Notes under the pieces: model-generated
Told to the model about the DNA's origin: nothing
Database searches by the model: none
The model's input: the letters and a program-made list of their open reading frames with translations, nothing else
Shown: piece after piece, positions 3,001 through 24,266 of the stretch
Layout of the letters: the number at the start of each line of letters is the position of its first letter
How positions within the stretch are numbered: the first letter of the stretch is position 1
Position numbers and translations under genes: made by a program
Origin: Kitasatospora sp. NBC_00458
GTDB lineage: Bacteria > Actinomycetota > Actinomycetes > Streptomycetales > Streptomycetaceae
Assembly: GCF_036013975.1 (NCBI RefSeq)
Contig: NZ_CP107904.1
Location: 868,001-932,000 of the forward strand
Direction: 5' to 3'
DNA length: 64,000 bases

Positions 3001-6000
3001 GGCGTCGACCAGCAGGTCCGCCTGGGCGTCCGGGCTCGGGGCCGTCAGCGAGGTGGTCCGGCCGCCGTGCCCGGCGACCGCCGCCTTGATCACCGCGTGC
3101 ACGGCGTCGCCGTCCTGCCGTGCCCGCCCGCCCGGCTTGAGCAGCACCGCGCCGACGCCCTCGCCGCGGACGTAGCCGTCGGCCCGGCTGTCGAAGGCCC
3201 TGCACCGGCCCTCGGGGCTGAGCATCCCGCTCTCGGCGAGCACCTCGTACACGCTCGACGTCAGGATCAGGTTGACCCCGCCGGCGATGGCCAGGTCGCA
3301 GGTGCCGTCGCGCAGCGCGGCGCAGGCCTGCTGCACGGCGGTGAGCGAGCCCGAGCAGGCGGTGTCCACCGCGACGCTCGGGCCGCGCAGGTCCAGCAGG
3401 TAGGAGACCCGGTTGGGGATCATCGTCAGCGCCGCGCCCGTCGCCGTGTGCCCCTGGGGCGGGCGGCCCTCGGCCCGCTGCGCCTCCAGGTAGTCGGAGT
3501 TGGCCACGCCGATGAACACCCCGACGCGCCTGCCGGCGAGGTCGGAGGGCCGGTAGCCGGCGTCCTCGACGGCCGACCAGACCACCTCCAGCAGCAAGCG
3601 CTGCTGGGGGTCCATCAGTTCGGCCTCGCGCGGGGAGATCCCGAAGAAGGCGGCGTCGAAGCGGTCCACGTCGGTCAGGAAGCCGCCCCGGAGCGGGCCG
3701 GCGTCCGTCCGGTCCCGCAACCCGCGGCGGTCCGCGGGCGCCTCGCCGACCAGGTCGTGCCCGGCGAGCAGGTGGTCCCAGAACTCCGCGAGGTCGGCCG
3801 ATCCCGGCAGCCTCCCGGCCATCCCGATGATCGCGACGTCCTCGCCGTGCGGCGGGCCGGCCGGCGCCTGCGCCGCCGGGAGCAGCGGCGCGGCGCCGGA
3901 CTCCGGGGACCCGGCGCCGAAGTGTGCGGACAGGCCGGCGGCGTGGTTGTCCCACAGGTACGCGGCGAGCGCGGTCAGGGTGCCCTGGCTGTAGAACACC
4001 GTCGGACGGACCTCGATGCCGTAGGCGGCGCGCAGCTCCACGCTGAGCGCGGTGAAACCCACCGAGTTCATGCCCGCCTCGCCGAACGGGACGTGCGGGC
4101 CGAGCTCCTCGGGGGCGATCCCCGCCAGGCGGCCGATCAGGCCGGCCAGTTCGGCGGCGAGCGCCTCGGTACGACCCCCGGTCCGCGCCGGGGCCCCGGA
4201 CCGTACCGGGGCCGCCTCGGTCCCGGACCCGCCCGCGGCGCCGAACCGGGCCCGCAGTTCGGCGAGCGGCAGCGCGGCCAGCGCGGTGCGGTCCACCTTG
4301 CCGTTCAGGGTGTGCGGGAAGCCCGTCACCCGGACCAGCGCGTCCGGGAGCATGTGGGCCGGGAGCCACTGCGCGAGCAGTTCCCGGGTGGGTTCGGGTG
4401 CCCCGTCGGCCGACACGTAGCAGGCCAGCAGGGAGCGGTCGCCGCCGTCGCGGCCGTGCGCCACCACGACGGCCTCGCGCACGCCGTCCAGCCGCCGCAG
4501 GGCCGCCTCGATCTCCTCCGGCTCGATCCGGAAGCCGCGCACCTTCACCTGCTCGTCGACCCGCCCCAGGTACTCGTACCGCCCGTCGGCGAGCCGGCGG
4601 GCGAGGTCGCCGGTGCGGTACAGGCGTGCGTCGGCGCCCGCGAAGGGGTCGGGCAGGAAGCGCTCGGCGGTGAGCTCCGGGCGGTTCGGGTAGCCGTCGG
4701 CCACCCCGTGCCCGCCGATGTACAGCTCGCCGGGCACCCCGGTGGGCAGCGGGCGGCGCGCGCCGTCCAGGACGTGCAGGGTGGTGTTGGCGATCGGGGT
4801 GCCCAGGGTCACCCGCTCGCCCGGCGCGAGCCGGCTCGCCGCCGACCAGATCGTGGTCTCGGTCGGGCCGTACAGGTTCCAGACCTCGCGGTTGCCGGCG
4901 AGCAGCGCCTGCGCGAGGTCCTCGGGCAGCGCCTCGCCGCCGCACAGCACGGTGAGGCCGGCGCCGCCCCGCCAGCCGGCGGCCAGCAGCATCCGCCAGG
5001 TGGCGGGCGTCGCCTGCATCACCGTGACGCGGCCGGATTCGAGCAGCTCGCGCAGCCGCAGGCCGTCCCGGGCGGTCTCGCCCGGCGCGATCTCCACGGT
5101 CCCTCCGCTGATCAGCGGCAGGTAGAGCTCCAGCCCCGAGATGTCGAAGCAGACGGTGGTGACGGCCAGCAGGGTGTCCTGCGGTCCGAACCCGGGCTCG
5201 CGGGCCATCGACCAGAGCAGGTTCACCAGCGCCCGGTGCGGGATCCGGACGCCCTTGGGCAGGCCCGTCGAGCCGGAGGTGTAGATCACGTAGGCGGCGT
5301 CCGACGGTCCCGCGGGCCCCGGGGAGGGGGCGGCCGGCGCGGCGGCGTCGTCGTCCAGCAGCAGGCGCGGCACGGCCGCGTAGCCGCTGGGGAGGTCGGA
5401 GCGGGTGAGCATCAGGTGCAGCCCGGCGTCCTGCGCCATGTGGGCGAGCCGCTGCTCCGGGTAGGCGGGGTCGAAGGGCACGTAGGCGCCGCCCGCGACC
5501 TGCACGGCCAGCAGTGCCACCGGCAGCTCGACGTCGCGCGGCAGCAGGACGCCCACCGTCCGGCCCCGGCCCACGCCGGCGGCGGTCAGCCGGGCCGCCA
5601 GGTCCGTCACCCGCGACCAGAGCTGCCGGTAGGTCAGCTCGGCTCCGGCGCAGCGCACCGCCACCGCGTCCGGGCGCGCCTCGGCCTGTCCGCGGACCAG
5701 CTCCCAGACCAGCGTGTCGGCCGGGTAGTCGACGCGCACGGCGGACGCGGCCCGCTCCTCCTCGGCCTGCTCCTCCCCGGTCCGCAGCTCCAGTTCGCCG
5801 ACCGGCGTCCCCGGGGCGCCGACCGCGTGGGCCAGCAGGGCGGCGAAGTGCCGCCCGAGCCGTTCCACCGTCCCGGCGTCGAACAGGTCCGGGTTGTACT
5901 TGAGCGTGTACCGGCAGCCCTCGGGCGCGTCCACCAGGTCCAGGGTCAGATCGAACTCGCCCTCCTGGTGCACGCCCTCGACCCGGCCCCGGACCGCTCC

Positions 6001-9000
6001 GGCCCCGGTCAGGTCGCGGGCCCAGTTGTGGAAGTAGTAGGCCACGTTGAACGGCGCCGACGACGCCGGGTCCAGCCGGCGCAGTTCCCCGGCGAGCGTG
6101 AACAGCGGGTAGCCGCCGTGCTCCAGCGCACCCAGCACCGTCCGGTGGAGCCGGTGCGCCAGGGTGCGGAAGGCCTCCTGGGCATCGACCCGCTCGGCCA
6201 GCACCACCATGTTCATGAAGTAGCCGAGCACGTCGTCGAAGCCGCTCGGCGGGCGGCCGGCCGTCGGAGTGCCGACGGCGATGTCGTCCTGGCCGCCGTA
6301 GCGGTGCAGGAGGGCGAAGAAGGCGGCCAGCATGACGCTGGAGAGCGAGGTGCGCTCCGCGGCGGCCAGCGACCGGGCCCGCTCCGACACCTCCGCCGGG
6401 ATCCGCCCGCTCACGCTCTCGCCGCGGAAGGTGGGCAGCGCGGGGCGCGGGTGGTCCAGCGGCAGCGCGACCGTGGTCCGCCGCCCGCGCAGCCGCTCGA
6501 CCCAGTACGCGCGCAGCCGCTCCCCTTCCGGCCCGGCGAGCTGTTCGCGCTGCCAGGCGGTGAAGTCCCCGAAGGTCCGGGCGGGCCGGTCGGCCGGCAG
6601 CGGCCGGCCCTCGGCGACGGCGCGCAGGCCGCGCTCCACCTCCTGGAGCAGCAGCGGGATGGACAGGCCGTCGAGCACCAGGTGGTGCACCGTCAGCAGC
6701 AGTGCCTGTCGGCCGTCGCCGAGGACGTAGACGGTGGCGCGCAGCAGCGGGCCCCGGGACAGGTCGAACGGACGCCTCGCCTCGGCGTGGATCCGCTCGC
6801 GCAGGGCGTCGTCGTCGACCGCCGTCAGGAAGACCTGCTGGAAGGGCAGTTCGGGTTCGGCCGCGATCCGGACGTACGGTTCGCCGCCGTCGGTGCGGAT
6901 CGTGGCCCGCAGCTCCTGGTGCCGGTCCAGCACGTCCTGGAGGACCAGGCGAAGGGCGGGCGTGTCGACGCCGGGGGCGAGCCAGAAGGCGAGCGGGAGG
7001 TTGTAGGCGTGGTTGCCCGGGGCGATCTGCTCGATCACCCACAGCGCGTGCTGGCCCGGGGAGGCCGGATGGGTGCTCAGCGTGGTGTCGGACCGGGGGC
7101 GCAGCACCCGGGCCACGTCCGCGGGAACGAGCGGCGCGGCGGGGAGGGACGGCTCGGCGGGGAGGGCCGGCGCGGCGGGAACGGACGGCTCGGCGGGCGC
7201 GGGGGCCTGCGCGGTGGGCAGCCATCCCTCCGCCAGGTGCGCGGCCAGCTCGCGCAACGTCGGCTTCTCGAAGAACTCCTCCAGCGGCACCGAGACGCCG
7301 AACGCCTCGTCCACGGCGGACACGATCTTCATTCCGCTGAGCGAGTCGAAGCCGTAGTCGGCCAGCCGGCGGTCGGGGTCGATGCGCTCGTCCAGCTTCA
7401 GGACCAGCTCCAGCAGCTCCCGCAGCCGCTCGGTGGCCGCCCCGGCCGCGTCCGACCGAGCCGGGACGACGGCCGTCACGGTGGCGGCGGTGGCGGCGGC
7501 GGAGGCCGTGGTGGCGGGCACCGCCGTACGCCGGTCGCCCACCGGGCCGTCGCTCCGCGCGACCAGGACGTGCTGCCCCGACTCCGCCGTCCCGGCTCCG
7601 AGGATCCGGGTCCGGGCGAAGCCCTCCTCGGCCAGCAGCCGGCGCCAGGCCTCGGGGTCGACCAGCGGGGAGCCGGGGATGCGCAGCTCGGCGTCCTGGA
7701 AGGCCCACCAGCCCTCCATCACACCGCCGGTGACGGTCAGGTAGGGGCGGATCGCGGTGAGCTCGTTGAGCAGCAGCAGGCCGCCGGGCTTGAGCAGCGC
7801 CCGGGCCTTGCGCAGGGTGGCCCGCAGGTTCCTGGTGGCGTGCACCACGTTGGTGGCCACCACGATGTCGGCCGTGCCGTCGGCGAAGCCCTGGTCGGGC
7901 AGGCCGCGTTCCAGGTTGAGCAGGTCGAAGCGGACGAACGGGTAGCGGGCGGCGAACCGCTCGCGGCCGTGCTCCAGGAAGCGCGGCGAGACGTCCGTGA
8001 AGGTGTAGCCGACCCGGCCCGGGTGCCCGGCCAGCACGGGCAGCACCCGCTCGCTGGTGGCGCCCGTCCCGGCGCCCAGCTCCACCACGTGGACCGCCTC
8101 CCCGGCGGCGAGCTCCGGAAGGCGGGCGGCCAGCGCCCCGCGAACCTCGTCCGCGACCAGCAGGTTGAAGAGGTCGGTCAGCGCGTTGCCCTTGTAGAGG
8201 TTCTCCACCAGCTGCATCGACGTACCGGGGAACATCACCTCCGTCCCCACCAGTTCGCCGCGCAGGAGCTGCGGATAGACCCGCAGGAACTCCCGGTTGA
8301 GGGTGACGGTGGGCGCGATGTCCGGGTAGCGGTCCGCGAGCCGGTCGAGCCCGGCCTCCCAGCGCTCCGCCCCGGCGGCCGCGTCCGCCGGACCGGCCGC
8401 CTCCGCGGTGGTGACGAGCTCCTCGCCCTCCCGGACCAGGAACCCGGCCTGGAGCATCAGGTCGAGCAGCGCCTCGTGCAGCCGCCGGAACTTGTCCCTG
8501 ATCCCGAGCCTGGCCCGCAGTTCCTCACTGCGGTACCGCTCACCGGCGCCCAGGAAGACGCCCATCCGCCGGTAGGCGCCGAACACCCCGGACTTGGAGG
8601 CCTCGTCCAGCTCCGCGAAGCCGGCCAGCACGGCGGCGACGTCGGAGCCGGGGCCGGACGGGGCCTGCGCTCCGGCGGCCGCGGCCGCGGCCGCGACGGT
8701 GGCGGCGCGCGGGGGCTCGGGCCGGACCGGCGGGGCCGGGATCCAGTGGCGCTTGCGGGCGAACGGGTAACCGGGCAGCTCGATGCGGCGGGCGGTGGCG
8801 GGGGTGATCCGCGACCAGTCGACCTCCGCGCCCGTCACCCAGTGCTCGGCCACCGCCGTCAGGGCGCGGCCGGTCAGCGCCGCCTCCAGGGCCTGGGCCC
8901 CGGCGGCCGGCGGCTGCGCCGGGGTACGGGTCGCGGTGCCGGTGGTGATCCCGTCGACGGCCTCGCCGGCCGCGTACGAGGCCAGCAGCCGGGCCGCCTC

Positions 9001-12000
9001 GGCGACCGAGCCCGCGGGCAGCGCGAGGCGGAACTCGTGGGCGGTACGGCCGGACTGCAGCGTGTGGGCGACATCGGCGAGCCGCGGGTGGCGGCGGGGC
9101 GCCTCCCGCTCCTCGGCCCCGGTCCGGCGCCCGAGGCCGGCCACCGCCTCGGCGACCGCGCCGATGGTCTCCGCCGCGACCGCCGCCGTGGGCAGCCTGG
9201 TGCCCAACTCCTCGGACAGCAGCGCGAAGTAGCGGGCACGCTCGGCCAGGCCGAAACCGCAGTCGATCAGGTCCGTGGTGAGCTCGACGGAGTCCGGCGC
9301 CACCCCGGCCAGCTCGGCGGCCAGCCGCAGGCACCGGCTGCGGGCGTCGGCCAACGGGTCCGGGAGGGCCGCGTCCACGCCCACCGCGCCGGCGCCCGTA
9401 CCCGCGCCCACCGGAGCCGGTGTGCCCCGGCGCAGGTGTTCCGCCAGGTCACCGGCGTAGGCACGCAACCGGTCCTCGGTCCTCGCGGACAGCACCAGGA
9501 GCTGCTCCGCCCCGTCCTCCGCCTGCTCCGTCTGATCCGGCTCGTCGGCCATCGGGTACTCCTCCATGATCACGCACGCGTTGGCGCCGCCGGCACCGAA
9601 GGAACTCACCAGGGCCCGCAGCGGAGCGCCGCCCGGCACGCCGGGACGCTCCGGGCCGGTCCAGGGCCGTGCGGCCTGCGGCACCTCGAACGGCGTGGTG
9701 GTGAAGTCGATCTCCGGGTTGGTCCGGGCCGAGTTCAGCGACGGCACCAGCGTCCGGTGGCGGAACTGCAGCAGCACCTTGGTGAGGCCGGCGATCCCGG
9801 CGGCCGACTCCAGGTGGCCGATGTTGGTCTTCACCGAGCCGACCGCCACCAGGGGCCGCCGGGCGCGCTGCGCCGGGTCGATCCGGCCGCCGAACGCGTC
9901 GACCAGGCCGGCGATCTCGATCGGGTCGCCGAGCATGGTGCCGGTGCCGTGCGCCTCCACGTAGCCGACGGTGTCCGGCGCCACCCCGGCGCGCTCCAGC
10001 GCGCCACGGACCAGGGCGCTCTGCGCGTCGGGATTGGGCACGGTGTAACCACCGCTGTTCCCACCGGAGTTGACGGCTGTCGCGCGGATGACACCGAGCA
10101 CCCGGTCGCCGTCGGCGAGTGCCCTCGCCAGCGGCTTGAGCAGCACCGCGCCGACGCCCTCGCCGTCCACGAAGCCGTCCGCGTCCGCCCCGAAGGCCTT
10201 GAGCCGGTCGCCGGGCGAGAGCATCCCCGCCCGGGACAGCCCGTGCAGGTGCTCCGGGTGCAGGATCAGGTTGACGCCGCCCGCGATCGCGGCGGCGCAC
10301 TCTCCGTCGCGGATGCTCTGGCAGGCCAGGTGAACCGCCGTCAGCGAGGCCGAGCAGGCCGTGTCCACCGCCAGGCTCGGCCCGGTGAAGTCGAAGGAGT
10401 AGGAGACCCGGTTGGCGGCCGACCAGTGGCGGGAGTGCGCCCCGGTGCTCACCCCGAGCGCGTTCGCCTCACCGCCCAGCCACTCGTAGTCGCTGTTCAT
10501 CACCCCGACGAACACCCCGACCGGGCCCTGGGCGGCCAGTCGCGCCGCCGGGTAGCCGGCGTCCTCCAGAGTGGCCGCCGCCGTCTCCAGGAACAGCCGC
10601 TCCTGCGGGTCCATCGCCTCGGCCTCGGCGGGCGAGATGTGGAAGAACAGCGGGTCGAAGGCGTCGACGCCGTCGAGGAAGCCGCCCCACTTGCTGTGGG
10701 CGCCGCGCTTGCCCTCCGGGTCGTAGTGCGCGTCCGCGTCCCAGCGGTCGGCGGGCACCTCCCGGATGCAGTGGCGGCCCGCGACGAGGTTCTCCCACAG
10801 CTCGCCGACCGTCCCCGCCAGCGGGTAGCGGCCGGCGACGCCGACGATCGCGATCCGGTCGTCGGACCGCTCCCGCGCCGCGGCGACCGGCGCGGCCTCG
10901 TCCACGGGCCCGGAGCCGGGACCGTCGGCGGACAGGCGACCCGTCAGGTAGGCGGCCAGCGCTCGCGGGGTGCGGTGCTCGAAGACCATCGTCGCCGGCA
11001 GCCGCAGGCCGGTGCGGGTACTGAGCCGGTTGCGCAGCTCCAACGAGGCCAGCGAGTTGAAGCCGAGCCGGGGGAACTCCGTGCCGGGGTCGACCTCGGC
11101 CGCCGAGCCGTGCCCCAGGACCGAGGCGGTCTCGCGCAGGACCAGTTCGGCGACGACCTGCTCGCGCTCGGCCTCCGGCACGGCACCGAGGCCCGGAGCG
11201 GCGGACGCGGGCCTCGCGTGCGGCGCGTCCGACGGGCCGCGCCGGGCCGGGGCCGACCGGCGGAACGGCTGTGGCGGCGCCCCGGCGGTCCGGAGCGGGA
11301 GCAGATGGGCCCGGTCGGAGCCGAGGGCCTCGTCGAACAGCCGCAGGGCGTCCCCGGTCTCCAGCGGAAGCACCCCGGCGCCGGTGAGGCGGGCCAGGTC
11401 GGCGTCGTCGAGCCGGCCGGTCAGGGCGCTGCGCTCGGCCCACAGGCCCCAGCCCAGCGACAGCGCGGGCAGGCCGGTGCCGCGGCGCATCCGCGCCAGC
11501 CCGTCGAGGAACGCGTTGGCGGCGGCGTAGTTGCCCTGCCCGGCGGTGCCGAGCGTGGCGGCGACCGAGGAGAACAGCACGAAGGCGCCGAGGTCGAGGT
11601 CGCGGGTCAGCTCGTGCAGGTGCCAGGCACCGTCGGCCTTGGCCGCCAGCACCGACCGCAGGCGCTGCGGCGTCAGCGAGCCGACCACCCCGTCGTCCAG
11701 CGTCCCGGCCGCGTGGACGACCGCCCGCAGCGGCCGTTCCGCCGGGATCGCCGCGAGCAGTTCGGCGAGCGCCGCACGGTCACCGACGTCGCAGGCCGCC
11801 GAGGTGGCCCGGGCACCCGCCGCGGTCAGCTCGGCGGCGAGCCCGGGCGCGCCGCCGCGGCTCACCAGCAGGAGGTCGCGCACGCCGTGCGCCTCGACCA
11901 GATGGCGCGCCACCAGGGTGCCCAGGGTGCCCGACGCACCGGTGATCAGCACCGTGCCGTCGGCGGGGAAGCCGGCTGTTCCGGCCGCCTTCGACCGCAC

Positions 12001-15000
12001 CAGCCGGGGCACCCGGATCTCACCGTCGCGGACCAGGAACTGCGGCGCGTCGCCGGCCGGCAGCGAGGGGAGCAGCTCGGCCAGGCCCTGCGGGTCGTCG
12101 GTGTCCACGAGCACGATCCGGTCCGGGTGCTCCGTCTGCGCCGAGCGCACCAGCCCCCACACCGCGGCCTCGGCGGGATCCGCCTCGGCGCCCGTCGCCA
12201 CCGCCCGCCGGGTCACGACCACCAGGCGGCCGTCGCCGGCGTCCTCGTCGGCGAGCCAGGTCTGCAGGTCCGCGAGCACGGCGGAGGCCGCCGCCAGGGC
12301 CCGGGCGGGCGGCTCGCCGTCCACGGGCCGCCGGGGCAGCAGGGTCGCGTCCGCGCCCCCGGCCCGGGGGGTGCCCGGCCCCGCGGGGACCCAGTCCAGC
12401 TCGTGGAGGGCGCCGTCGCCCTGACCGGCGAGGAGCGCGGCGTCGAACGGACGCAGCGCCAGGGACTCGGCCGACAGCACGGCGCGGCCTGATTCGTCCG
12501 CGATCCGCACGGCCACCGAGCCGTCGTCCAGCGGGGTGAGCCGGGCGCGCACGGCCGACAACCCCGCGGCCGCGTCCGGGTCCAGCCACCGCACGCCCCG
12601 CCAGCAGAACGGCAGCCCCGGCTCGGACTTCAGGTCCAGGGCGTGCAGGGCCGCGTCCAGGAGCGCGGGGCGGACCGCCTCCGGCAGCGCGACCTCGGCG
12701 AAGAGTTCGCCGTCCTGCCGCCACAGCGCCCGCAGCCCCCGGAAGCCGGGCCCGTACTCCAGGCCCTGCGCGGCCAGGTCCCGGTACCAGCCCTCCAGGT
12801 CGACCCGCTCGGCTCCCGACGGCGGCCACGGACCCACCTCGATCGCGGTGTCCGGCTCACCGGCCTCGACGAGGGTTCCGGTGGCGTGCAGCTCCCAGTC
12901 GGCCTGCGGTGCGCGGGCGTACAGCCGCATCGGCCGGCCGGCCCCGTCGGCCGGGTCCACCACCAGCTGGATCTCGACCCCGCCCTGCTCCGGCACCACC
13001 ACCGGGGTCCGCAGGACGAGCTCGTCCACGGTGTGGCCGGTCTGGAGCGCCATCTCCAGCAGGGCGGTGCCCGGCACCACCATCCGGCCGAGCACGCGGT
13101 GGTCGGCGAGCCACGGGTGGGTGCGCCGGGACAGGTTGCCGGTGAGGACCGTCCGCTCGCCGTCGGCCAGTTCGAGGGGGGCTCCGAGCAGCGACTCGGG
13201 CGCGCGCAGCCAGTAGGACTTCTGCTGGAAGGCGTAGGTGGGGAGTTCGACGATCCGCGCGTCGGTGCCGTCGAACGCCCGCGTCCAGTCCACCTCGACG
13301 CCCTGGGCGTGCAGTGCGGCTGCGGAGAGGGCGAACCGCCGGGTGGCGTCCTCGTCGCGGCGGAGCGTGTCCGCCACCACGGCGTCGCGGTCGGCGGCGT
13401 CCACCGTGTCCTGGATCGCCATGGTGAGCAGCGGGTGCGGGCTGACCTCCAGGAACACCCCGTACCCGTCCTCGGCCAGGGCGCGGACCGTCTCCTCGAA
13501 CCGGACCTGCTGCCGGAGGTTGCGGTACCAGTAGGCGGTGTCCAGCTCCGGGCCGTCGAGGCGGCCGGCGGTCACGGTCGAGTGGAAGGCCACCCGGGCG
13601 GCCCGCGGCCGCACCCCGGCGAGCGACTCCAGGAGCTCCTCGCGCAGCTCCTCCACGTGGGCCGTGTGGGAGGCGTAGTCCACCGGTACGCGGCGGGCCC
13701 GCACGCCGTCCGCCTCGCAGGCCGCGAGCAGCTCGTCCAGCGCCTGCGGTTCGCCGGCGACGACCACGGCGGAGGGTCCGCTGACGGCCGCCACCGAGAT
13801 CCGCTCGCCGAACGGCGCGATCCGCTCCCGCACCCGGGCCTCGGGGGCGACGACCGACACCATCCCGCCCCGGCCCGCGAGCGCCGTCAGGGCCCGGCTG
13901 CGCAGTACGGACAGCAGTGCGCCGTCCTCCAGGGTGAGCGCGCCGGCCACGCAGGCGGCGGCGATCTCGCCCTGCGAGTGCCCCACCACCGCCGCCGGCT
14001 CGACGCCGTACGAGCGCCAGAGCGCCGCCAGCGACACCATCACCGCCCAGAGCGCGGGCTGCACCACGTCGACCCGCTCCAGCGCGGCCCCGTCGGTCAG
14101 CACCTCGCGCAACGACCAGTCGACCAGACCGTCCAGCAATCGCTCGCACTCGGCCATCCGGTCGGCGAACACCGGTGCGGAGTCGAGCAGTTCGACCGCC
14201 ATCCCGGCCCACTGCGCACCCTGCCCCGGGAACACGAACACCACCCGGCCATCCACCCGCCGGTCCGCACCCACCACCACCGACGAACCGTCCCCACCCC
14301 CCGCCAACGCCGCCAACCCCTCCAACAAACCCTCACGACCGTCCGCGACCACCACACCCCGGTGCTCCAGCACCGCCCGCGAACACACCGACGAGAAACC
14401 CACATCCACCACACGCACCGACGGATCCGACTCCACCCGCACCCGCAACCGCTCCGCCTGCGCCCGCAACGCCGCCCCACTCACCCCCGACACCACCACC
14501 GGCACCGGCCCCGGACCCGACACCACCGCCCCGGACTCCACCGACTCAGGCCCCACCGCCCCGGACTCCACCGGCGCGGACTCCACCGGCGCGGGCTCCA
14601 CCGGCGCCTCCTCCAGAATCACATGCGCGTTCGTCCCACTGATCCCGAACGCCGACACCCCCGCCCGACGCACCCGACCCACCCGCGGCCACACACGCCG
14701 CTCCCGCAACAACTCCACCCCACCCGAAGACCAGTCCACATGACGCGACGGCACCTCCGCATGCAACGTCCGCGGCAACACCCCCGCCCCCAACGCCATC
14801 ACCATCTTGATCACCCCACCCACACCCGCCGCCGCCTGCGAATGCCCGATGTTCGACTTCAACGACCCCAACCACAACGGCCGATCAGCCGAACGCCCCT
14901 GCCCGTACGTCGCCAACAACGCCTGCGCCTCGATCGGATCCCCCAACCGCGTCCCCGTACCATGCGCCTCCACCGCATCCACATCCACACCCGACAGACC

Positions 15001-15984
15001 CGCACCCGCCAACGCCGCCCGCACCACCCGCTGCTGCGCCAACCCGTTCGGCGCCGTCAACCCACTCGACGCACCGTCCTGATTCACCGCCGAACCCCGC
15101 ACCACCGCCAACACCCGACGCCCCGCCCGCCGCGCATCCGACAACCGCTCCAACACCAACACCCCCACACCCTCCGCCCACCCCGTACCGTCCGCCGCAT
15201 CCGAGAACGCCCGGCAACGCCCATCGGGCGACAGGGCGCGCTGGCGCGCGTACTCGACGAAGGTGCGCGGCGTGGCCATCACGGCGACGCCGCCGGCCAG
15301 GGCGAGCGTGCTCTCCCCCGAACGCAGCGACTGCACCGCCAGGTGCAACGACACCAACGACGACGAACACGCCGTGTCCACCGTCACCGCCGGCCCCTCG
15401 AACCCGAAGGTGTAGGAGATCCGCCCCGACGCCACACTCGGCAGGCTGCCGTTGAACAGGTGGCCCTCAAGGGCACCGGTCTCCGGGCCCAGGCGCGACG
15501 CGTAGTCGTCGTACATCACGCCCGCGAAGACGCCGGTCCGGCTGCCGCGCAGCGAGGCCGGGGCGATCCCCGCGCGCTCCAGCGCCTCCCAGGAGACCTG
15601 GAGCAGCAGCCGCTGCTGCGGGTCGGTCGTCAGCGCCTCGCGCGGGGACATGCCGAACAGGCCCGCGTCGAACTCCCCTGCGTCGTGGAGGAATCCGCCG
15701 TACCGGGTGTAGGTCGTGCCGAGGCGGTCCGGGTCGGGGTCGTACAGCCCCTCGACGTCCCAGCCCCGGTTCACCGGGAACTCGGTGAGCGCGTCCACGC
15801 CGTCGAGGGTCAGCTGGAACAGGTCCTCGGGCGAGGAGACCCCGCCCGGGTACCTGCACGCCATTCCCACGATCGCGATCGGCTCGCGCCCGGCCGTCTC
15901 CTCCAGCTCGGCCAGTTGGCGGCGGGTCTGGCGCAGCTCGGTGGTGACCCGCTTCAGGTAGTCGAGCAGCTTCGCCTCGGTCAT
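1..15984 (-). CDS. Hybrid cis-AT/trans-AT PKS-NRPS megasynthase (3' end beyond window)
   Basis: The frame starts at ATG 15984, 2 bp after the stop of the loading PKS, and reads open to base 1 (5328 codons seen). Domains by approximate residue: coiled-coil N-docking helix (1-30, [17 protein letters not shown]); KS (31-455, Cys in DTACSSS); AT (560-870, YASH, so methylmalonyl-type); DH (925-1150, [10 protein letters not shown]); KR (1340-1530); ACP (GFNSL, about 1640); AT-less KS (1709-2140); an ACP-like insert (about 2240, CGFGL, no Ser); C-methyltransferase (ELGAGTG, about 2637); ACP (GFDSLSG, about 2880); C (HHLVLDG, about 3100); A; PCP (GMNSVG, about 3976); AT-less KS (4047-4470); DH (about 4680, final Pro of its motif is Ala); KR (Tyr about 5275), where the window ends. 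The A-domain pocket reads DILQLGLIW, the known glycine code. It should extend the chain from 15987-24266 by two polyketide units, add Gly, then continue. Domain calls are direct; substrates are inferred. Confidence 0.93.
14145..15228 (-). repeat. Long near-identical repeat, copy 1 (KS end to AT start)
   Basis: This stretch, in the cis-AT module of the 1-15984 gene, is almost identical in DNA to 19571-20603 in module 1 of the upstream PKS. The main difference is 51 extra bases (17 residues, Pro/Val/Glu/Ser-rich) in the KS-AT linker. Two more identical-length blocks flank it: 13924-14050 with 19341-19467 (127 bp) and 15291-15442 with 20666-20817 (152 bp). Codons here end mainly in G (GTG, GCG, CGG, TTG), unlike the C-ending codons around them. 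The plus strand therefore looks C-rich and G-poor. Confidence 0.9.
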
Positions 15985-15986
15985 CG

Positions 15987-18900
15987 TCAGGGCCTTCCAA
16001 GCTCATCGTCGATCAAGGAAAAGAGCTCGTCCGCGCTTGCCGCGGTGATCTCCTCGTCGTGCACCGGGTCCGCCCCGAACGGCTGGGCGGTCAGTGCCGA
16101 CAGCAACTCCCACACCTGTGTGGTGACGTCCAGGCGCAGCCCGGCGTCGAGGGTGGCCGCACCGGCCACCAGTCGGGACAGTGCGGCGAGCGCGGGCTCG
16201 GCCGACGTTTCGGGGTCCGGGTCCGGGGTCGGCTCCGGGTCCGGGTCCGGGTCCGGGGTCGGTTCCGGGGCGAGCCGCTCCAGCAGGTGCCGGGCCAGGG
16301 CGATCACGCTCGGGTGCTCGAAGGTCACCGTCGTGGTCAGGGAGAGCCCGGTGAGGCCGGCCAGCCGGCTGCGCAGCTCCAGGGCGGTGAGCGAGTCGAA
16401 GCCCATGTCCATGAAGCCGCGGTCGGGTGCGACGTCGCTCGGTCCGGAGCGGCCCAGGACGGTCGCGATCTCCGTCTGGACGAGCCGGCGGAGCGTCAGT
16501 TCGCGCTCGTGCTCCGGCAGGAACCCCAGCTGTTCGGCCAGGGGCCGGGCACCGCCCGTCGTCCGCCCGGTCGGCGCGGCAGGGGCGCGGACCAGCGCGC
16601 GCAGCACCGCGGGCGGTGTGCCCTCCCGCAGCTCGTCCGGGTCGAACCAGGCGGGCACCAGATGCGGCCGGTCCGCGTCGAGGGCGAGGTCGAACAGCGC
16701 CAGCGCCTGGTCGGTGGGTAGCGGCCGCAGGCCGGCCCGGAGGATCCGCCGCCGGTCGGCGGCGTCGAGCGCTCCGGTCAGGCCGGTGCTCTGCTCCCAC
16801 AGGCCCCAGCCCATCGACACCGCGGGAAGTCCCCGTTGGTGCCGGTGGTGGGCGAGCGCGTCCAGGAAGGCGTTGCCGGCCGCGTAGTTGGCCTGCCCGG
16901 CCAGGCCGACGGTGGCCGAGACGGAGGAGAACAGCACGAACGCGGACAGCCCGACGCCTTCGGTCAGCTCGTGCAGGTTCCAGGCCGCGTCGGCCTTCGC
17001 CGCGAGGACGGCGTGCAGCCGTTCCGTCGTCAGCGAGGAGACCGCGCCGTCCCGCAGGACCCCGGCCGCGTGCACCACGGCCCGCAGCGGGGCCGACGCG
17101 GGGACGGCCGCGAGGACACCGGCCAGCGCGGACCGGTCGGCCGCGTCGCACGCCGCCACCGTGACGGCCGCGCCCGCGGCGGTCAGCTCCGCGACCAGGT
17201 CGGCCGCGCCGTCGGCGGCGGGGCCGCTGCGGCTGACCAGCAGCAGCCGGCGGACGCCGTGCCGCTCCACCAGGTGGCGTGCCACGGTGGCGCCGAGGCC
17301 GCCGGTGCCACCGGTGATCAGCACCGTCCCGTCGGTGCCGGCGAGCGACCGGTCCGCGGCCGGCGCGGGGACGGAGCCGCGGGCGAGCCGGGGGACGAGG
17401 ATCCCTCCGGCGCGCAGGGCGACCTGCGGTTCGTCGACGGCGAGGGCCGCACGCAGCCGATCGGCCGGGGGTTCCCCGCCGCCGTCGTGGTCCAGCAGGA
17501 CGATCCGGCCCGGGTACTCCGTCTGGGCCGAGCGCAGCAGGCCCCACACGGCGGCGGCGGAGAGGTCGAGCTCCTCGTCAGGTGCCACGGCCACGGCCCG
17601 GCGGGTGGTGACGACCAGCCGTCCGGAGCCCTCGCCGTGCTCGGCCAGCCACGCCTGGACCTCGCCCAGCACGTGCTCCGCCGTCACGTGCACGGCCGCG
17701 GACGGCTCGATCGCGCTCGACGGGACCGTCAGCAGGACGGTCGGGGCGTCCGGCGCACCGGTTCCGGCGGGGACGCCGACCCCGCGCCATTCGACCTGGA
17801 ACAGCTTGGGGTCGGAGCGGCGGGCGTCGAGCGGGCGCAGGGTGAGGCAGTCGACCGAGAGCACCGGGGCGCCGTTGCCGTCGGTGGCGGCCAGCGTCGC
17901 CCGCTGCCCGCCGAGCAGGCCGATCCGGACCCGGAGCCGGGTGGCACCGGTCCGGGCGAGCCGCACGCCCTCCCAGGAGAACGGGACCACCGGCCCGGTG
18001 TCCTCCTCCAGCACCAGCGGGTGGAGGACCGCGTCCAGCAGCGCGGGATGCGCGCGGAAAGGCCCCGCCTCCTCCGCCAGCGCCACCTCGGCGAGCAGGT
18101 CGGCACCGTGCCGCCACACCGCGCGCAGGTTGCGGAAGGCCGGCCCGTACTCCAGACCGCGCCGGGCGAGCTCGTCGTACCACCCGGCGGGGTCCAGCGG
18201 GGTCGCCCCGCTCGGCGGCCACTCGGTCGGCGCCGGGCCGTCGGCGGCGGCCTCGGCCGGGCCCACCCGCCCGGTGGCGTGCAGCCGCCAGTCCTCCTCG
18301 GTCTCGCCGTGCACGCGGCCGTGGATGCGCAGTTCCCGCCGGCCGGACGCATCCGGTGGCGCCGCCGTCAGCTGCACCTCGACCTCGCCCCGTTCCGGCA
18401 CCACCAGCGGTGTCCGGAGGGTCAGTTCGTCCACCGTGTGGCCGATCCGCAGCGCCATCTCCAGCAGGGCCGTGCCCGGCACCACGGCCTGACCGAGCAC
18501 CCGGTGGTCGGTCAGCCAGGGTCGGCTGCGCAGCGAGAGGCGTTCGGTGTGCACGGTGCCGCCGTCGGCGAGTTCCACGGGCGGCCCGAGCAGCGGCCGG
18601 TCCGCCAGCGGGTGCAGCCAGTGGCGGCGCCGTTGGAAGGCGTAGGTCGGCAGCTCGACGCGGCGCGCGCCGTTTCCGGTGTGAGGTCCGTTCCAGTCCA
18701 CCGCGACGCCCTGCGTCCACAGCCTCGCCGCCGAGGCCAGGAACCGGTGGAGTCCCCCCTCGTCGCGCCGGAGCGTGCCGGAGACCACGGCGGCGCCCGG
18801 CTCGGACCGGCCCTCCAGGACCTCCTCGATGTTCATGGTGAGCACCGGGTGGGGGCTGACCTCGACGAACGTGCGGTACCCCTGCTCGGCGAGTGCCGCC

Positions 18901-21900
18901 ACGGCGGAGTGGAAGTGCACCGGTCGCCGCAGGTTGCGGTACCAGTAGCCGGCGTCGACCGGCCGTTCGCCGAGCCAGTCCCGCTCGACGGTCGAGAAGA
19001 GCGGCACCCGCGCGGGCCCGGGGCGGACGTCCGCGAGCACCCGGGCGAGTTCGTCCTCGATCCGCTCCACGTGGGCCGTGTGGGAGGCGTAGTCCACCGG
19101 TACGCGGCGGGCCCGCACGCCGTCCGCCGCGCAGGCGGCGAGCAGCTCGTCCAGCGCGTCCGGATCGCCGGCGACGACCGTGGCGGACGGGCCGTTCAGG
19201 GCCGCCACCTCCAGCCGGCCCGGCCACGCGCGGAGGCGGGCCTCCACCTCGACGGACGGCAGAGCCACCGACATCATCCCGCCGTGGCCGGCCAGTCCCC
19301 GGGCGATCGCCTGCGAGCGCAGGGCGACGACCCGCGCCGCGTCCTCCAGGGTGAGCGCGCCGGCCACGCAGGCGGCGGCGATCTCGCCCTGCGAGTGCCC
19401 CACCACCGCCGCCGGCTCGACGCCGTACGAGCGCCAGAGCGCCGCCAGCGACACCATCACCGCCCAGGAGAGCGGTTGGACGACGTCGACCCGCTCCAGC
19501 GACGGGGCGCCCGGCACCTGCCGCAGCACGTCCTCCGGCGCCCAGTCCACGAACTCCGCCAGAGCCGCCGCGCACTCGGCCATCCGGTCGGCGAACACCG
19601 GTGCGGAGTCGAGCAGTTCGACCGCCATCCCGACCCACTGCGCACCCTGACCCGGGAACACGAACACCACCCGGCCATCCGCCCGCCGGTCCGCACCCAC
19701 CACCACCGACGAACCGTCCCCACCCCCCGCCAACGCCGCCAACCCCTCCAACAAACCCTCACGACCATCCGCGACCACCACACCCCGGTGCTCCAGCACC
19801 GCCCGCGAACACACCGACGAGAAACCCACATCCACCACACGCACCGACGGATCCGACTCCACCCGCACCCGCAACCGCTCCGCCTGCGCCCGCAACGCCG
19901 CCCCACCCACCCCCGACACCACCACCGGCACCGGACCCGACACCATCACCCCGGACTCCACCGCCCCGGGCTCCGCCGGCGCCTCCTCCAGAATCACATG
20001 CGCGTTCGTCCCACTGATCCCGAACGCCGACACCCCCGCCCGACGCACCCGACCCACCCGCGGCCACACACGCCGCTCCCGCAACAACTCCACCCCACCC
20101 GAAGACCAGTCCACATGACGCGACGGCACCTCCGCATGCAACGTCCGCGGCAACACCCCGGCCCCCAACGCCATCACCATCTTGATCACCCCACCCACAC
20201 CCGCCGCCGCCTGCGAATGCCCGATGTTCGACTTCAACGACCCCAACCACAACGGCCGATCAGCCGAACGCCCCTGCCCGTACGTCGCCAACAACGCCTG
20301 CGCCTCGATCGGATCCCCCAACCGCGTCCCCGTACCATGCGCCTCCACCACATCCACATCCACACCCGACAGACCCGCACCCTCCAACGCCGCCCGCACC
20401 ACCCGCTGCTGCGCCAACCCGTTCGGCGCCGTCAACCCACTCGACGCACCGTCCTGATTCACCGCCGAACCCCGCACCACCGCCAACACCCGACGCCCCG
20501 CCCGCCGCGCATCCGACAACCGCTCCAACACCACCACCCCCACACCCTCCGCCCACCCCGTACCGTCCGCCGCATCCGAAAACGCCCGGCAACGCCCATC
20601 GGGGGAGAGCCCGCCCTGCCGGGAGAACTCGACGAACATCCCGGCGGTCGACATCACCGTGGCCCCGCCGGCCAGGGCGAGCGTGCTCTCCCCCGAACGC
20701 AGCGACTGCACCGCCAGGTGCAACGACACCAACGACGACGAACACGCCGTGTCCACCGTCACCGCCGGCCCCTCGAACCCGAAGGTGTAGGAGATCCGCC
20801 CCGACGCCACACTCGGCGTGCCCCCGGTCAGGGCGTAGCCGCCGAAGCTCTCCGAGGTCTCGTCCAGCGGGGGGACGTAGTCCTGGTTCATGACGCCCAT
20901 GAAGACGGCCGTCCGGCTGCCGCGCAGCCCGGCGGGGTCGGCTCCGGCGCGCTCCAGCGCCTCCCACGACACTTCGAGCAGGAGCCGCTGCTGCGGGTCC
21001 ATCGCCCGCGCCTCGCGCGGGCTGATCCGGAAGAAGTCGGCGTCGAGGTCCAGGGCTCCGGTGAGGAACCCGCCGGTACGGACCTGTCCGGTGCGCTCCG
21101 GGTCGAGGCTCCAGCCGCGGTCCTCGGGGAACGCCGTGACGGCGTCGGCCTCCTCGTGGACCAGACGCCACAGGTCCTCGGGCGAGGCCACGCCGCCCGG
21201 GAAGCGGCAGCCCATGCCCACGATCGCGATCGGGTCCTCGTCCGGGGCGGGACCGGCGGCGGCCGGGCGCTCCTCCGGGGCCTCCCCGGAGAGCTCCTCG
21301 TGAAGGTGGCCGACCAGCGCGGTGATCGTCGGGTGGTCGTACAGCAGGGTGACGGGCAGTCGCAGCCCGGTCGCCCTCCCGAGCCGGACGCTCAGCTCCA
21401 CCGCGGTCACGGAGTCGAAGCCGAGCTCCGGGAACGCGTGGTCGGCCGCCATCGCCCCCGGGTCGGTGCGGCCGAGCACGGCCGCCGCCTGGGCCCGGAC
21501 CAGGGTCTGCAGGTCCTCCGGCCCCCGCGCCGTCCGCCGTGGCGGGGCGGCGGCTTCCGCCCCGGGTGCCGACGGCGGCGCCGACGGCGCGGGCAGCGAC
21601 GGCAGCGCGCCAACGGTGTCGGAGAGCCAGTAGGGCTGCCGCTGGAAGGCGTAGCCGGGCAGCTCGACGGTACGGGCGCCGGTGCCTTCGAACACCGGCC
21701 TCCAGTCCAGGTCGACGCCCTGGACGTGTAGTTCGGCCATGGACAGCAGCAGCCGCCGCAGCCCGCCCTCGCCGCGGCGCAGGGTGCCCTGGACCACCGC
21801 GTCCGGGGCGTCGCCCAGGGTCTCCCGGACGGCCGTGGTCAGCACCGGGTGCGGGCTGGCCTCCACGAACACCCCGTGTCCGTCCGCGGCCAGCGCCCGG

Positions 21901-24266
21901 ACGGCCGCCATCCAGCTCACCCGTTCGCGCAGGTTGCGGTACCAGTACCCGGCGTCCAGGCCGTCCGCCCCGAGGAGGCCGCCGGTGACGGTCGAGTAGA
22001 ACGCGACGTCGCCGGCCCGGGCGGTGACTCCGGCGGCGGCGCGCAGGACCTCCTCGCGGACGGGCTCGACGTACGGCGAGTGCGAGGCGTAGTCGATCGG
22101 GACCGTCCGGGCCCGGACGCCCCGGGCCTCGCACTCGGCCGTCACCGCCCGCACGACCTCGACGGGACCGGAGACGACGACCGAGTTCGGGCCGTTGACC
22201 GCGCCGACCGCCACCCGTTCCTGGTCCACCTCCTCGACCGGCATCGCCAGCAGGGCCATCGCGCCTCGGCCGGAAAGCCGGGCGGCGATGGCCCGGCTGC
22301 GGTCGACCATCAGCCGCAGCGCGTCCGGGAGCGGGACGATCCCCGCCGCGCAGGCCGCGGTGATCTCCCCCTGGGAGTGGCCGACCACGGCGGACGGCCG
22401 CAGTCCGACGGCCCGCCACACCTCGGCGAGCGACACCTGTACCGCGAAGAGCGCGGGCTGCATGACGTCCATCCGCCGCAGCGCCGCCTCGTCTCCCAGC
22501 ACCTCCCGCAGCGACCAGTCGACCTGGCCCGCCAGCAGCCGCGCGCACTCCGCCATCCGGGCGGCGAACACCGGCGACGAGTCCCACAGCTCCAGGGCCA
22601 TCCCGGCCCACTGCGGGCCCTGCCCGGGGAACATCCACACGACCCGGGACAGCGGGCCGCAGACGCCGGCCGCCACGTGCGGGGACGGCTCGCCCTCCGC
22701 CAACGCCGTGAGTCCGGCCAGGAGTTCGGCACGGTTCGCGGCGACGACGACCCCGCGGTGCTCCAGGGCCGTACGCGTGGTGGCGCTGGCGTAGCCGACG
22801 TCGCGCGGGCGCAGCGCCGGGTCGGCGCCGAGGTGTTCCAGCAGCCGGCGGGCCTGGGCCCGCAGTGCCGCCTCGCTCCGGCCGGAAACCAGCACCGGCA
22901 CGGCCGGCCCGGACTCGTCCCCGGTCCCGGTCCCGGTCCCGGACTCGGCGGGTTCGCCGCAGGCCGGCTCGGACGCACCCGGGGCGTCGCCCACCACGAC
23001 GTGGCAGTTGGTACCGCCGATGCCGAAGGAGCTGACGCCGGCCAGCCGGGCGCCCTCGGGCCAGGGGCCGGCGGTGTCGTTGACCCGGAGCCCGAGCCGC
23101 TCGAACGGGATCGAGGGGTTGGGCTCGGCGTAGTTGAGGCTGGCCGGGAGGACTCCGCGACCGATGGAGAGCGCGACCTTGATCAGCCCGACGACGCCCG
23201 AGGCCCCGTCGAGGTGCCCGATGTTGCTCTTCACCGATCCGACGAGCAGCGGCCGGGCGGCGGGCCGCTCCCGGCCGAGCACCTCGCCGAGCGCCTCGGC
23301 CTCGATCGGGTCCCCCGCCCTGGTCCCGGTGCCGTGCAGTTCGACGTACCCCACCCGCGCCGCCGGCTCCCCGGCCCGCTCGTAGGCCTCGCGCAGCAGT
23401 TCCCGCTGTGCCGCGCCGTCAGGGGTGGTGAAGGAGTCGCCCCCGCCGTCGTTGTTCACCGCGCTGCCGAGCAGGACGCAGTGGATCCGGTCGCCGTCGG
23501 CGACGGCGTCGGTCAGGCGCTTGAGCACGACCAGACCGCCGCCCTCGCCGCGGACGGTGCCGTTGGCGCGCGCGTCGAAGGTGTAGCAGCGGCCGTCCGG
23601 GGAGAGGGCCCCGGCCCGGGCGAAGGCGAGCGTGCTGTCCGGGGTCAGGTTGAGGTGGACGCCGCCGGCCAGCGCGAGGTCGGTGGCGCCGGACCGCAGG
23701 TTCTCGCAGGCCAGGTGCACGGCCACCAGTGAGGAGGACTGCGCGGCGTCGACGGTCAGGCTCGGACCGCGCAGGCCGAGGTGGTAGGAGATCCGGTTCG
23801 CTATCACGCCCCGGCTCAGTCCGGTCAGCGAGTAGGAGGAGACGGCCTCCTCGCCGTGCCGGTGGACGAGGGTGGCGTAGTCGTCGCCGGTGGCGCCGAG
23901 GAACACCGCGGTGGAGCCGCCGCGCAGGCTCCGGGGTGCGACGCCGGCGTGCTCCAGGGCCGTCCAGCCCAGTTCCAGGGCCAGCCGCTGGCGGGGGTCC
24001 ATCGCCGCGGCCTCGCGCGGCGTGATGCCGAAGAAGTCCGGGTCGAAGTCGGCGACCCGGTCGAGGAATCCACCGCGCGTCAACCCGGCCGGCCGGAGGT
24101 CCTCCGGCACGCCGCCGAGGTCCCAGCGCCCCTCGGGGAGGTCGCCGATCGCCTCGGTGCCGTCGCGCAGCAGCCGCCAGAATTCACCGAGGTCGTCGGC
24201 CCCCGGGATGCGACAGGCCATGCCGACGACGGCGATCGCGGACCGGCTCGGGTGGCGCGTGGGCAT
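15987..24266 (-). CDS. Type I PKS: KSQ loading module plus cis-AT extension module 1
   Basis: This 2759-aa protein starts at ATG 24266 behind an AAAGGAA ribosome site. The first KS (10-430) has Gln176 in place of the active-site Cys (VDAAQSSS). It is therefore a KSQ decarboxylase, expected to make the starter from a diacyl unit on the loading ACP (GFDSV, about 950). The loading AT (GHSQGE about 628; YASHS about 727) carries the methylmalonyl-type YASH motif, so the starter should be propionyl. Module 1 follows: KS (1009-1427, Cys about 1177), AT (1533-1805, YASHT, methylmalonyl), DH ([10 protein letters not shown], about 1922), KR (TGGTGGLG about 2319, catalytic Tyr about 2461) and ACP (MGFDSL, about 2622). 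A Pro/Asp/Glu linker leads to a C-terminal docking helix ([19 protein letters not shown]). That pairs logically with the coiled coil opening the next gene, 2 bp downstream. Expected product: a 2-methylpent-2-enoyl chain passed to the next protein. Confidence 0.95.
16211..16268 (-). repeat. Short tandem repeat encoding a Pro/Asp/Glu linker
   Basis: Repeats of a GGGTCC-type hexamer on the plus strand encode alternating Pro-Asp/Pro-Glu-Pro-Thr residues. They lie between the last ACP and the C-terminal docking helix of the loading PKS. It acts as a flexible acidic tether and is likely prone to length change by slippage. Confidence 0.8.
19571..20603 (-). repeat. Long near-identical repeat, copy 2 (KS end to AT start)
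   Basis: This is the partner of 14145-15228, in module 1 of the loading PKS. Identity starts abruptly at the AT N-terminal third and stops abruptly in the KS. Only a few substitutions, for example near 19623 and 20581, separate the copies. It shows the same G-ending codon preference, different from the rest of the gene. Recent duplication or gene conversion is the simplest reading. Confidence 0.9.

Follow-up and report, generated by a model that had tools for sequence, protein, structure and literature searches.

A Kitasatospora synthase that very probably joins a complete cis-acyltransferase module to trans-acyltransferase-type modules in one chain

Introduction

Protein A is a giant hybrid of polyketide synthase (PKS) and nonribosomal peptide synthetase (NRPS) encoded in a 64,000-nucleotide stretch of Kitasatospora sp. 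NBC_00458, bases 868001–932000 of one 8.01-Mb contig (NZ_CP107904.1); we call the whole stretch the window, and coordinates refer to it unless marked as genome positions. Within one chain, a complete extension module with its own acyltransferase (AT) is followed by modules that have none. We are highly confident in the resulting biosynthetic and evolutionary scheme as a whole, namely that a cis-AT extension module has been fused to AT-less modules of trans-AT type that are likely charged by a discrete tandem AT–AT–enoylreductase (AT-AT-ER) protein. We give about even chances to a more specific proposal: that a cis-AT front end was covalently grafted, once, onto an all-trans assembly line of the phthoxazolin/oxazolomycin type, at the border between an acyl carrier protein (ACP) and a gatekeeper ketosynthase (KS), and that the graft works because both front ends present this KS with the same 2-methyl-2-enoyl group.

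Whether, and where, cis-AT and trans-AT modules can be joined is a question of engineering. A family of 14 such fusions together with their unfused sisters allows the splice point, the linker and the retained KS to be read directly and copied into hybrid enzymes. It also offers a case of KS gatekeeping, in which one KS receives its chain from two chemistries that are unrelated yet should arrive at a single acyl group.

Domain order and reading frame of protein A

The gene for protein A is a single open frame on the reverse strand that runs from position 15984 to position 1 and on past the window to genome base 862361. It encodes 7,207 amino acids, and its sole stop codon is at the terminus. 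The domains are arranged in the order KS-AT-DH-KR-ACP / KS-cMT-ACP / C-A-PCP / KS-DH-KR-ACP / KS-KR-ACP / KS0 (DH, dehydratase; KR, ketoreductase; cMT, C-methyltransferase; C, A and PCP, condensation, adenylation and peptidyl carrier protein domains). Those inside the window were assigned with Pfam, and those beyond it (ACP, KS-KR-ACP and the last KS) with profiles built in this analysis.

All features of protein A listed here are on the reverse strand. Residues 1–1680 comprise, according to Pfam, an N-terminal docking domain (PF08990, residues 1–29, 15898..15984, 40.4 bits); KS1 of cis-AT type with part of its C-terminal extension and with the Cys-His-His motifs in place (14605..15885); an integrated AT with GHSQG and YASH motifs (13294..14241); a DH with an intact HxxxGxxxxP motif (12436..13191); a KR (11434..11958); and ACP1, the final domain of the cis module, with its serine (10945..11142). 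Judged by GHSQG and YASH, the AT is of the methylmalonyl type, following the specificity-residue passages of PMC6164871. The earlier note on this DNA, made from the letters alone, had described just such a KS-AT-DH-KR-ACP module with a methylmalonyl-type AT.

A linker of 28 residues (10861..10944) then forms the splice point between cis and trans parts, at the place occupied in all-trans relatives by their N-terminal stretch. It leads into KS2 with part of its C-terminal extension (9610..10860), the first KS of trans-AT type, in which the Cys-His-His motifs are again present. Behind it lie a flanking region without an AT (8995..9609), the C-methyltransferase (about 7732..8244, by Pfam and a profile built here), ACP2 (7234..7431), the NRPS module C-A-PCP (3955..7071), KS3 of trans-AT type with part of its C-terminal extension (2575..3843) and the DH and KR of the KS3 module (1..2037). 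Left of the window the protein continues with an ACP, KS4-KR-ACP and KS5. Both KS2 and KS3 carry RhiE-like linkers according to Pfam. The code extracted from the A domain, DILQLGLIW, we take to specify glycine. The KS starts given in the earlier note, 10860 and 3846, agree with ours to within three bases; its KS ends depend on the share of the flanking region that is included.

The KS2 flanking region is split by a degenerate carrier-like insert (9142–9327; Pfam PP-binding, 21.7 bits) that has a leucine where the serine belongs (CGFGLA). The 16 proteins compared, fused and all-trans, have a comparable stretch in the alignment; by eye, none shows a serine there.

Two genes, one cis-AT and one trans-AT, might have been merged by an error of sequencing or assembly. 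Very long, GC-rich and repetitive PKS genes misassemble readily, and the frame is broken in some draft relatives (L036, L042 and L047). When gene A is scanned in full windows of 400 codons, however, third-position GC stays between 0.91 and 0.99 in each of the 18, which gives no hint of a frame change; there is no internal stop; and the same ACP–KS2 junction recurs in 13 other proteins, seven of which have the whole layout at 7,158–7,259 amino acids. We regard such a merger as next to impossible, and a frameshift or a pair of merged genes was rejected.

The absent AT and the discrete tandem AT

No AT was found between KS2 and the C-methyltransferase with Pfam (E ≤ 0.01), with NCBIfam or in a genome-wide search with PF00698, and a filter-free search of the same stretch with an AT profile built here scored −1.5 bits. 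A hidden AT was rejected on these results. From KS2 onward the modules lack an integrated AT, as the earlier note had read them: KS2 is followed by the methyltransferase and ACP, and no AT follows KS3. That note had also named two findings that would speak against it, an AT in this interval and a frameshift, and neither appeared.

It had further predicted a discrete AT outside the window. Such a gene is present at the cluster's left end, 5.6 kb beyond the left edge of the window; it overlaps gene A in an ATGA, the start codon of the one sharing bases with the stop codon of the other. The encoded AT-AT-ER protein has 1,127 residues, made up of two AT domains and an enoylreductase-type domain. 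It matches fabD in two stretches, and its last domain scores 380.7 bits against PfaD, below the family cut-off of 449. The closest solved proteins are PksD for the first AT, DisD and PksC for the second AT and DfnA for the ER part.

The second AT reads LVRRRGELM and the first LVRQAGALR. The malonyl-binding arginine is kept in the second AT, while the aligned column in the first holds an alanine, directly preceded by a glutamine; this column is sure to about one residue, the cis ATs aligning one column off there. Absence of the arginine is given as diagnostic of an acyl hydrolase in the relevant passages of PMC11775670. Because the arginine is present in only one of the two domains, the second AT is likely a malonyl loader and the first likely an acyl hydrolase. 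The AT-less part of protein A is likely charged in trans by this protein encoded directly behind it. In locus L032, a reverse-strand frame with a cytochrome P450 match (9761–10984) overlaps the end of the AT-AT-ER gene.

Affiliation of the KS domains

The KS tree is unrooted and holds 120 rows, 85 without and 35 with a following AT, one of them being the KS4 of protein A entered twice. It drew on 15 of the 120 listed homologs and on 10 reference loci, with the pTML1 plasmid record and the genome's own cis-AT clusters used as references. Assigning KS clades by phylogeny had been one of two checks proposed in the earlier note, the other being a genome search for a stand-alone AT, and both came out in favour of that note. 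The cis and trans labels need a single change on the tree, KS1 falls among the cis rows, and KS2, KS3, KS4 and KS5 all fall on the trans side. KS1 and its neighbour on the tree, the second KS of protein B (15987..24266, reverse strand), belong to a group of 29 cis rows that has a support of 100. Ranking against solved structures points the same way, KS1 being closest to DEBS and other cis-AT synthases and KS2 to synthase KS domains of which several are recorded as AT-less. The top-ranked entries for KS2 come without names, and we take them to be trans-AT synthases. By these comparisons KS1 has a cis-AT affiliation and KS2–KS5 have a trans-AT affiliation, the latter in keeping with the trans-AT-type flanking regions behind KS2 and KS3.

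Two features of the tree count against this assignment. The branch that divides cis from trans KS domains has a support of 59, and the KS3 group belongs to a larger set, supported at 100, in which all the cis rows and 27 trans rows are found too. The low dividing support would suit a different account, in which the modules without an AT would be of the ordinary cis-AT kind, would have lost that domain and would rely on a neighbouring cis AT; the cis AT of the same protein could in principle act on an adjacent ACP. We consider this very improbable, given that KS2–KS5 group with trans-AT KS domains, that trans-type solved proteins rank first for KS2, that KS2 and KS3 bear RhiE-like linkers, that the stretch of protein A from KS2 to KS5 has its matches in all-trans proteins, and that a tandem trans-AT gene overlaps the end of gene A.

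Some further observations concern the KS and AT domains of this genome. The second KS of protein B and KS1 of protein A are 81% identical and the stretches behind them 86%, whereas the ATs share only 65% and the DHs 49%, as if the KS domains of B module 2 and A module 1 had been homogenised by gene conversion. Genome positions 838011–857550 (forward strand), adjoining the cluster, carry KS and AT matches on the strand opposite to it, and two KS domains from this region form a long-branch clade of their own in the tree. At genome positions 987008–990712 (forward strand, L035) in another part of the genome, a KS is followed by two adjoining AT matches, each of the three listed with an open-frame length of 2,044 codons.

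The fused family and the position of the probable graft

A homolog search scored 1,002 candidates, of which 906 passed the cut. Among the 120 homologs listed, 13 further actinomycete proteins have the fused layout, so that the family of 14 spans, by record name, the genera Streptomyces, Amycolatopsis and Saccharothrix in addition to the protein described here. Seven of the 13 show the complete layout at the lengths given above; four start at the AT and not at KS1, and P0014 lacks the last KS. No AT was seen in any other protein among the 237 database proteins listed by two protein searches. The earlier note had thought a cis-to-trans switch within one actinomycete protein rare: the fusion itself is real, and its isolation did not hold up, in view of these 13 proteins and of the alpiniamide precedent discussed below.

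A search of genome contigs returned 14 loci, eight fused, five all-trans and one unrelated. The last, L048 from Polyangium, is a cis-AT match that was rejected as a family member, and some of the eight fused loci have broken draft frames or lie at the end of a contig. All 13 genomes searched contain a tandem AT match; it shares a contig with the fusion in six of the eight fused loci, the remaining two having it on separate short contigs. Upstream of the fusion an AT-bearing frame occurs in five of the eight, and the other three sequences end too close to it.

The cis module is well preserved across the family. All 14 fused proteins retain GHSQG in the AT, the motifs of DH and KR, and the serine of the ACP; all 10 that contain KS1 retain its triad. 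This bears on the suggestion that the module is a skipped relic and that chain building begins elsewhere. Module skipping has been proposed for the small trans-AT system of alpiniamide, in the account of that cluster in PMC6113372, but the conserved motifs, together with a KSQ loader that stands in front of the fusion in both relatives fetched far enough, make a relic very doubtful here.

The trans part of protein A belongs with a set of proteins that we label PtxB-like and OzmH-like on size, layout, homology class and architecture. It has their core, KS-(KR)-MT-ACP-C-A(Gly)-PCP-KS-DH-KR-ACP-KS (MT, methyltransferase; glycine as read from the A-domain code), and high identity along it: against nine PtxB-like all-trans proteins, 45–85% per segment from KS2 to KS5. 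The docking domain and AT of protein A have no counterpart in these nine. The all-trans PtxB-like proteins are about 6,000 amino acids long, and in all nine KS2 is the first domain, beginning at residue 22–27; the six N-termini printed have a short MxxKR-LL start before it. In the fused proteins this place is taken by the cis module and a linker of 24–73 residues (24–30 in all except P0010). With a cis module in front of its KS2, protein A is a fused derivative and not a plain PtxB/OzmH-like member.

In the core tree the fused proteins form one clade with P0119 (support 100/100), and the clade branches among the PtxB-like proteins. P0119 begins inside KS2, apparently cut, and was assigned to no group; P0091 was left out of a second core tree for its long branch. 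The reverse history, with the fused state ancestral and the cis module lost from the all-trans PtxB/OzmH-like proteins, receives some room from an approximately unbiased (AU) test, which does not reject the PtxB-like proteins as a clade (p 0.06). Yet the cis module occurs in none of the 14 OzmH-like outgroup proteins, so that a fused ancestor would require two or more losses where grafting requires a single gain, and six PtxB-like N-termini share the MxxKR-LL start. We rate an ancestral fusion as improbable. The direction from all-trans to fused, that is, grafting, is favoured by these data and not proven; a cis-AT front end made up of a KSQ loader and two modules likely replaced a trans-AT front end exactly before KS2.

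Upstream feeders and the proposed reason for keeping KS2

A PKS ending in KS-DH-KR-MT-ACP lies upstream in all three all-trans loci fetched, and in one of them it adjoins the KS2 protein. From its domains, this feeder should make a 2-methyl-2-enoyl chain, which it would hand to KS2 by analogy with the published oxazolomycin/phthoxazolin order. The feeder of the fused family is KS-AT-DH-KR-ACP; using methylmalonate it is predicted to give a 2-methyl-2-enoyl chain as well, so that KS2 would receive the same group. Leaving aside the two closest proteins, KS2 is 76–81% identical within the fused group; to the nine PtxB-like proteins the identity is 70–78%. KS2 could have been kept because the old and the new feeders should deliver the same alpha-methyl enoyl group.

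The rest of the assembly line

Protein B, encoded next to A, consists of a KSQ-AT-ACP loading module (KSQ motif VDAAQSSS) and a KS-AT-DH-KR-ACP module, both of its ATs being methylmalonyl type by motif. Protein B and module 1 of protein A have the marks of a cis-AT PKS: an AT in each module, KS domains in the cis clade and a DEBS-type docking domain on A. Both relatives noted above, S. globisporus and, in draft frames that are broken, S. himastatinicus, also have a KSQ loader and one module ahead of the fusion, and their KSQ motif is identical to that of B. Protein B would feed protein A.

Protein D (39249..51224, reverse strand) has no AT and the order DH-ACP-ACP-DH-KS-KR-ACP-KS0-ACP-C-A-PCP. 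The second ACP of its initial pair lacks the serine. In the last KS of protein A, NGSGS replaces HGTGT, and the second KS of D reads ASANGT. As protein A ends in KS-KR-ACP-KS0 and D starts with DH-ACP, the layout is that of a split dehydrating bimodule, and the KS0 and DH on either side of the break look like one. A relative of the first 840 residues of D is found in all eight fused genomes (53–79% identity, in two pieces in one of them) and in two of the five all-trans genomes; the closest listed relative, 88% identical, is from a Kitasatospora record.

Protein E (29851..39237, reverse strand, counted from the first methionine) is C-A-PCP-C-A-MT-PCP-C. Both D and E end with NRPS modules, the final domain of E being a C domain. 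Between E and B, at 27039–29854, lie a gene of the tryptophan-halogenase family and a sodium/hydrogen exchanger gene.

Proposed scheme and points against it

We propose that protein B starts the chain with propionate and docks onto protein A, whose module 1 would add methylmalonate, reduce and dehydrate, so that ACP1 would carry a 2-methyl-2-enoyl chain. Across the 28-residue splice this chain would pass to KS2 for extension, the malonate being supplied in trans by the second AT of the AT-AT-ER protein. The KS2 module would then methylate it without ketoreduction and hand it to the glycine module, with the remaining AT-less modules to follow, and the KS0 at the end of A would act with the DH at the start of D as a split dehydrating bimodule. 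For the front portion of the product this predicts a dimethyl-diene ketone begun from propionate, in which an alpha-methyl or gem-dimethyl group adjoins a glycine amide. In evolutionary terms, a cis-AT module likely took the place of the N-terminal stretch in an all-trans PtxB/OzmH-like ancestor.

In addition to the KS-tree features and the AU result already given, several observations weigh against this scheme. The KR of the KS2 module is absent from all 14 fused proteins and present in 36 of the 38 non-fused ones, the exceptions being P0017 and the apparently truncated P0119; the product of the KS2 module has therefore changed. In two of the three all-trans loci, feeder and KS2 protein are not adjacent; two genes lie between them, one short and of A-PCP type, the other of KS-ACP type. 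The proposal that KS2 stayed because its substrate did not change draws on domain content, not on chemistry. The extender may also differ within the family: in the stretch searched, YASH occurs in nine of the 14 fused proteins, F[AS]AH in five and the malonyl motif HAFH in none, and the module-1 ATs of the F[AS]AH type (P0006, P0007, P0010, P0014 and P0015) may load another extender unit. The D relative is on the fusion's own contig in only three of the eight fused genomes, most of which are drafts.

Comparison with known systems

The labels used above come from two synthases. OzmH-like proteins, named for their architecture, share KS-(KR)-MT-ACP-C-A-PCP-KS-DH-KR with protein A, and in this respect the line resembles the oxazolomycin synthase (OzmH, OzmN, OzmM). 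Unlike A they have no cis-AT module, and their later modules differ (KS-DH-ACP-MT-KR...). In Streptomyces coffeae (L085, 3248–19532), a PKS frame upstream of an OzmH-like synthase has AT-ACP first and continues without AT (KS-DH-KR-ACP...); this may be a further fusion of a cis loader with trans modules.

The phthoxazolin synthase of Streptomyces avermitilis (PtxA, PtxB, PtxH) is, as described in PMC5764310, a close parallel too. PtxA consists of a tandem AT and an oxidoreductase domain, and the same source notes tandem trans-AT domains in OzmM of oxazolomycin. PtxB is a hybrid NRPS/PKS of 5,939 amino acids whose best named homolog is OzmH, and the synthase includes KS0 domains, a dehydrating bimodule that is split, and a module in which one ACP lacks the serine. 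Compared by description, the layout of protein A from KS2 onward and that of protein D fit this system. There are differences at the front: the Ptx PKS modules described are all without AT and the front end makes an oxazole-triene (PtxE, PtxC, PtxF), whereas here it is cis-AT and fused. Module 2 here also lacks a KR, and the serine-less ACP of the pair is the first in phthoxazolin and the second in protein D.

Kirromycin, which the earlier note had put forward as a precedent, is indeed a mixed cis/trans-AT system. In the passages of PMC5818483 that treat it, KirAVI is the only cis-AT PKS and a separate protein that follows KirAI–KirAV. The two systems have in common a PKS/NRPS of mixed type with discrete ATs (KirCI in kirromycin), and kirromycin comes from Streptomyces. 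The arrangement here is nonetheless not of the kirromycin type, the cis part being first and covalently joined. Enacyloxin was the other precedent put forward there; passages on its docking domains are found in PMC9113145.

A literature search of open-licence papers found none that describes the fused layout or names its product. A related case is alpiniamide gene 12750 of Streptomyces sp. IB2014/011-12, given in the cluster description of PMC6113372 as KS-AT-ACP;KS-DH-KR-ACP in one chain and so, like protein A, an actinomycete protein with both cis-AT and trans-AT modules. Its cis part is only a loading module; in protein A it is a full extension module that follows a separate KSQ loading protein. 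Joining cis and trans modules in one chain thus has a precedent in alpiniamide, and the conserved fused layout is a new version of it. The position of the joint differs as well. Recombination sites in trans-AT synthases are located behind KS domains in the passages of PMC7930024 that discuss them, in contrast to the joint of protein A, which lies in front of one. If the graft is true, it would amount to a natural, substrate-matched rule for joining the two PKS classes in front of a KS rather than behind it.

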